Shown here piece by piece: positions 33,601 to 34,170 of a DNA stretch of 64,000 nucleotides (positions are counted from its first letter, which is position 1; every line of letters begins with the position of its first letter). The DNA comes from Candidatus Desulfovibrio gallistercoris (GTDB taxonomy: Bacteria > Desulfobacterota > Desulfovibrionia > Desulfovibrionales > Desulfovibrionaceae). The notes beneath the pieces are model-generated. The model saw nothing but the letters and a program-made list of their open reading frames with translations, searched no databases and had not been told where the DNA came from. The translations under genes were made by a program, and so were the position numbers. The DNA is taken from NCBI GenBank assembly GCA_019118745.1, contig DWYJ01000037.1, forward strand, positions 38,489-102,488, given 5' to 3'.

Positions 33601-34170
33601 ATGCTCAAACCGTTCTATCAGGGAAAACTGGACACCTTCTGCGCCATCTATGCCGTTTTGAACGCCCTGCGTCTGACGCACGGCATACGCACGCTCAAGG
33701 CGCGGGAGATCCTCAACGATACGCTCATGGCCCTGGCGGCCCGGCCCGAGGCCCTGCGCGCCGTGCTGGATCAGGACACCAACTACATCGAGCTGGTGGA
33801 CGGCATGCTGCGCGCCCAGCAACGGGCTTTTCCGCTGGGGGTGGAGATCCCCTTCAGGGAACAGGACAGGCCCGGCCCTGATGCCGTCTGGGAAGTCTGC
33901 CGTCAATGGTTGGGGGCGGACCGCAAGCGGGCCGTCGTCATGCGTTTCCTGCGCCACCTCACCGCCGACGGTCCGGCCGTCAACCGGCACTGGACGGTCA
34001 TCGACAGGATGGACGAAGACGTCCTGCACCTTTTCGACTGCAGCCACGAGGCCGAGGCCATCCTCAACATCCGCCGGGGGACCTTCGTCACCGACGCCAC
34101 GCAGGTCAGCAAGGAACGGCTGCTCATCATCCAGCCGGAAAGCATTCGCCTGCTGCGCCTGCCTTTCTGA
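33601..34170 (+). CDS. Putative papain-fold (C39-like) cysteine peptidase or related enzyme
   Basis: FYQGKLDTFCAIYAVLNALRL (Q...C-x-x-Y-A-x-x-N), NRHWTVIDRMDEDVLHLFDCS (H...D); GGGAGG RBS. Confidence 0.65.
   Translation: MLKPFYQGKLDTFCAIYAVLNALRLTHGIRTLKAREILNDTLMALAARPEALRAVLDQDTNYIELVDGMLRAQQRAFPLGVEIPFREQDRPGPDAVWEVCRQWLGADRKRAVVMRFLRHLTADGPAVNRHWTVIDRMDEDVLHLFDCSHEAEAILNIRRGTFVTDATQVSKERLLIIQPESIRLLRLPF

Follow-up and report, generated by a model that had tools for sequence, protein, structure and literature searches.

A conserved, predicted papain-like cysteine enzyme of an unnamed family is enclosed by a Sel1-like gene array in Desulfovibrio

Does a small cysteine enzyme encoded in the middle of an array of Sel1-like genes act on the products of that array, or has the array merely grown around it? 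The window, a stretch of 64,000 nucleotides from Candidatus Desulfovibrio gallistercoris (contig DWYJ01000037.1), contains six array paralogs with a common C-terminal ARPDK tail and, between the third and the fourth of them, an ORF of 189 codons (hereafter T). The original prediction had read T as a peptidase with the Q/C/H/D order of papain-like folds and had offered, as speculation, the ARPDK[RHC] tails as its substrates. The ORF is present on the forward strand as described, with both motif stretches, FYQGKLDTFCAIYAVLNALRL and NRHWTVIDRMDEDVLHLFDCS, and T forms a sequence cluster separate from the paralogs on either side:

28390..29754, + strand: array paralog 1, Sel1-like, with an N-terminal hydrophobic segment, ending ARPDKH (surroundings, outside the system of T)
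29818..31170, + strand: array paralog 2, ending ARPDKR (sequence)
31385..33436, + strand: array paralog 3, internally duplicated, ending ARPDKR (sequence)
33601..34170, + strand: T, predicted papain-like cysteine enzyme, 189 aa (ORF, 27 full-length relatives, dN/dS, AlphaFold2 model)
34222..35298, + strand: array paralog 4, 51 nt downstream of T, ending ARPDKC (sequence)
35292..36827, + strand: array paralog 5, ending ARPDKH (sequence)
37215..38909, + strand: array paralog 6, ending ARPDKR (sequence)

A scan of the GTDB species genomes returned 27 relatives of T, all full length and 64–97% identical (26 titled Desulfovibrio and one Deltaproteobacteria bacterium), and Q7, C14, H130 and D146 were invariant in every one. 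When the alignment was extended to 31% identity, which takes in other genera of the Desulfovibrionaceae, the invariant residues were Q7, G8, D11, C14, Y17, N21, T60, F116, R118, H130, W131, D146 and S148, and Q7, G8, D11, C14, Y17, N21, H130 and D146 were also unchanged in a 14-row alignment with distant homologues (about 22% identity). Substitutions between T and its counterpart in locus L002 fell mostly at third codon positions (4/2/34), and dN/dS was 0.04 against L002 and 0.12 against L005; T is under strong purifying selection. Together, the full-length relatives, the invariant residues, the third-position substitutions and the low dN/dS show that the ORF did not arise by chance. T was present in 49 of the 61 sampled genomes of the genus and in 66 of 151 genomes of the family; its D. 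vulgaris orthologue is presumably DVU2447. The parts of the gene that bear on its predicted activity are as follows:

33591..33596, + strand: Shine-Dalgarno-like GGGAGG just 5' of the ATG of T (read directly from the sequence)
33619..33621, + strand: codon of Q7, the glutamine predicted for the oxyanion hole (unchanged in every alignment, down to about 22% identity)
33640..33642, + strand: codon of C14, the predicted nucleophile, close to where helix 11–27 begins (invariant; secondary structure of the model)
33988..33990, + strand: codon of H130, which lies in strand 126–138 and is the predicted general base (invariant; model)
34036..34038, + strand: codon of D146, predicted third residue of the triad, after strand 141–144 (invariant; model)

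The fold of T was predicted with AlphaFold2, giving a pLDDT of 86.9 with the 27 close relatives and of 89.3 after homologues from phage contigs had been added. In the latter model Q7 precedes a helix (residues 11–27) with C14 near its start, H130 lies within strand 126–138, and D146 stands just past strand 141–144, so that T combines a conserved Cys, His and Asp and a Gln ahead of the Cys with the Cys-bearing helix and subsequent His and Asp strands of papain-like (clan CA) enzymes. For both models the best Foldseek matches in the PDB were papain-like, namely Alr0975, staphopains, CtaG, C39 domains, PeiR and PaJOS, and an entry named 'P210 CD lyase' (22oc) likewise ranked high. With moderate TM-scores (about 0.41–0.57) and about 10–12% identity to solved folds, T can be placed at the superfamily level only; a second Foldseek search gave 0 matches at E <= 0.001. 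The structural comparison and the invariant residues thus bear out the papain-like part of the original prediction, supporting T as a conserved papain-like cysteine enzyme with a predicted Q/C/H/D site. We consider T a real and conserved gene for a predicted enzyme of an unnamed papain-like family, which is probably active; its catalysis, its cytoplasmic location and the absence of a link to the array are inferred.

None of the family libraries searched accommodates T. Sequence searches of Pfam, NCBIfam, PADLOC, PHROGs and the PDB gave no credible match to T, with 0 Pfam families for T itself and no papain-like Pfam family for any aligned member, and no curated model in the libraries searched covers its wider family. 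The best fold match was Alr0975 of Nostoc, a phytochelatin synthase (C83, PF05023; 2bu3, 2btw, 6th5; probability 0.99, TM-score up to 0.57), which shares the Gln-Cys-His-Asp order, but identity is about 11% and T did not match the PF05023 model; a genome-wide search with PF05023 also gave no match, but its controls went unmatched too. Staphopain-type proteases (1pxv, 1y4h, 8oig; probability 0.94–0.97) have the same non-permuted papain order of a helix followed by strands, but they are only 10–12% identical and are secreted, whereas T has no signal peptide or transmembrane segment (maximum 19-aa hydropathy 0.92). The C39 peptidases (the PCAT1 domain and the C39-like 3erv; probability 0.60–0.66) resemble T in their Cys/His/Asp layout; T had no C39 match in Pfam, however, and no ABC transporter or leader-peptide gene was recognised beside it, its recurrent neighbours being panC/metK or Sel1-like genes. 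The Josephin-type PaJOS (9g7g) was a weak match (probability about 0.2); it shares the HW motif with T, and in both the insert between Cys and His is long. T had no Pfam match, and its third residue is Asp where Josephins have Asn. The BtrH_N/CtaG transferases (9quz; probability 0.54, TM-score 0.39) share the papain fold, but PF14399 did not match T and no biosynthetic cluster was recognised around it.

If T works as other papain-fold enzymes do, Cys14, close to the beginning of the first helix, would be activated by His130, which Asp146 would orient, while Gln7 and the backbone would stabilise the oxyanion. An acyl-enzyme would then form with a peptide or amide as substrate, to be released either by water, as in a peptidase or amidase, or by another nucleophile, as in a transferase such as phytochelatin synthase.

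The position of T in other genomes shows how it relates to the array. Its usual divergent neighbours are also present in the window:

27289..28134, - strand: panC, the gene usually divergent from T, with paralogs 1–3 lying between the two here (PF02569 match; synteny)
26098..27270, - strand: metK, S-adenosylmethionine synthetase, next past panC (sequence; synteny)

Of 52 loci, 26 have panC and another 4 have metK as the immediate divergent neighbour of T, and the metK cluster was near T in 37 loci, although several genomes carry T at other places. Three array genes stand between panC and T in the window and three beyond T; in L003 and L004, panC is directly divergent from T, with metK past it, and a single Sel1-like gene follows T. 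Sel1-like array genes were found beside T in five loci only (the window and L002–L005). At L005:6137-6247 a decayed 37-residue fragment of a second T lies between array paralogs, with an intact T further on, consistent with duplication of a unit of T plus paralog and subsequent decay of the extra copy.

Could T nevertheless be a peptidase that acts on the C-terminal ARPDK[RHC] tail of its Sel1-like neighbours, by cleavage or by conjugation? T adjoins array genes in all five array-bearing loci found, and the tail is conserved at the protein level among the paralogs, as its codons vary synonymously between them; for the same reason the tail was rejected as a mere DNA repeat. The paralogs have one N-terminal hydrophobic segment, followed by basic residues in most, which makes their C-termini plausibly cytoplasmic, where T would also be. 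Close array homologues occurred, however, in only 3 of the 61 genus genomes (its own, G474 and G475), and a further 3 had distant Sel1 relatives, while 43 carry T with no array homologue detected. Co-occurrence, the test that the original prediction had itself named, fails in one direction, since all array genomes have T and almost no T genome has the array, and the presence of T in 3 of 3 array genomes is what its frequency predicts by chance (p=0.51). Selection also differs: between the same pairs of genomes the array genes had dN/dS of 0.48–1.03 versus 0.04–0.12 for T. Finally, the single-copy array relative ends in VRQDKR in L003 and has no tail in L004, yet T there is 94% identical and its catalytic residues are unchanged; the distant Sel1 relatives elsewhere mostly have signal-peptide-like starts and lack the ARPDK tail. 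A cytoplasmic tail would still be within reach, but the distribution, the tail loss and the dN/dS contrast make a dedicated enzyme-substrate pair unlikely, and we regard processing of the array by T as extremely improbable. The same evidence, with the panC/metK synteny and the L005 fragment, points to T having been engulfed by a local gene expansion. Of the original interpretation, then, the papain-like enzyme is supported while the link to the tails, already marked there as speculation, is not: the array proteins are probably not the substrates of T, and an attractive enzyme-substrate story is corrected as unsupported.

The account that we favour, and consider very likely, is that T belongs to an undescribed family of papain-like thiol enzymes, is soluble and cytoplasmic and has been vertically inherited in the Desulfovibrionaceae, and that the array enclosed it without its proteins being specific substrates. 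T would have been passed on vertically, usually divergent from panC-metK, and tandem duplication in a single small clade would have given rise to the Sel1-like array beside it.

Two further readings concern what such an enzyme might do. The synteny with panC and metK, conserved over most of the family, and a gene reading as panB (cluster C9) on the other side of T in several genomes would fit a link to pantothenate/CoA or SAM metabolism, but T is divergent from panC and not co-directional with it, is located elsewhere in several genomes, and does not track PanD, while genus genomes lacking T retain PanC (60 of 61 have it); we therefore consider this link very unlikely. The pantothenate connection was accordingly rejected, as neither PanC nor PanD presence follows T. 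Alternatively, T may use its papain fold as an acyl- or peptidyl-transferase or a thioesterase, like phytochelatin synthase, BtrH or CtaG, and not as a peptidase. Alr0975 and CtaG are among the closest folds, and in a 2023 classification of papain-like proteinases staphopain, BtrH_N and phytochelatin synthase are placed in one section, with BtrH_N close to C39 and C70 (PMC10318531). In three loci (L007–L009), moreover, a gene on the strand of T that reads as an acyl-CoA synthetase (cluster C8, 558 aa) stops 8 nt upstream of it. Since staphopain and C39 proteases match T about equally and the ligase gene is so placed in one clade only, we see a transferase or thioesterase as possible, if somewhat unlikely.

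A wider family shares the signature QGxxDxxCxxYxxxN...H...D. A profile of the Desulfovibrionaceae proteins found homologues in five genomes from other families of the same phylum. Others lie on plasmids of Salmonella, Paracoccus, Methylobacterium and E. coli, and 39 of 5426 complete E. coli genomes and 12 IMG/VR contigs also carry a member; these contigs were picked by a DNA pattern for the Q-to-Y part of the motif, and the downstream HW and D were present in 12 of 12. The wider-family members tested scored 30–59 bits against the Desulfovibrionaceae profile, compared with at most 7.3 for shuffled controls; homologues selected by motif are partly circular evidence, which does not apply to P0001, P0002 and L066. 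The best reading of this wider family is as an undescribed set of papain-like thiol enzymes, either hydrolases or transferases, of which one branch, that of the Desulfovibrionaceae, is vertically inherited. Its annotated members were labelled 'hypothetical'. A clear active-site signature can now be attached to widespread hypothetical proteins, some of them on E. coli RADAR islands, and a family that the curated libraries searched do not recognise becomes testable in laboratory E. coli; one E. coli homologue is WP_000174655.1.

The most interesting open reading is a mobile-element or defence-related origin of T, that is, that T represents the domesticated branch of an enzyme family found in mobile elements and defence islands and has kept an anti-phage or counter-defence role. 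In both E. coli chromosomes read, the homologue shares an island with RADAR rdrA/rdrB, a JAB/RadC gene, DUF2787, YeeU and an integrase. On an E. coli plasmid the homologue is set in a similar backbone with a retron nearby, and RADAR is absent from the stretch read; this suggests that the gene belongs to the backbone of the element and not to RADAR. Elsewhere a homologue begins 21 nt past a HEC-05-like gene (L136), another is separated by 34 nt from a GmrSD Orf5/HEC-06-like gene (L135), and a third lies about 1.4 kb from a Cap4-NACHT gene in an island that carries an integrase (L134). These neighbours are no more than suggestive; homologues on plasmids and IMG/VR contigs fit the same reading. 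The Desulfovibrionaceae branch, however, differs from typical defence genes in being single-copy and near-core and in keeping a stable housekeeping synteny, and no PADLOC defence model matched T at E <= 1. That the family consists of phage, plasmid and integrative-element enzymes that accompany anti-phage systems and process a protein or modified peptide in defence or counter-defence, with one branch domesticated and near-core in the Desulfovibrionaceae, is therefore a tentative proposal that we think unlikely, and that T itself has kept such a role we likewise consider unlikely. Overall, homologues in mobile islands with RADAR, retron, HEC-05, GmrSD-like or Cap4-NACHT genes were seen at L073, L139, L141, L142, L134, L135 and L136.

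Several observations were made on the array and its genomes. Paralog 4 carries an in-frame deletion in L002. Array gene 5 (35292-36824 in the window) is nearly identical to its counterpart (L002:3559-5091), with a dS of 0.017 versus 0.30 for the nearby T, which suggests either that array DNA has recently recombined between strains or that a metagenome contig is chimeric. In the array-bearing genomes (G000, G474 and G475) PanC was present and PanD (aspartate decarboxylase) was unmatched, so beta-alanine may have another route or an outside source. A dispersed intergenic repeat of ~146 bp, which had no match in Rfam, occurs in the window at 31170-31316, 36875-37016, 37121-37252, 38911-39051 and 43069-43214. 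About 42 places in the genome carry it at nearly full length, a tandem trio among them, with 86–91% identity to the copy at 43069 (40 candidates scored), and it is also found at G000:C21:30664-31088.
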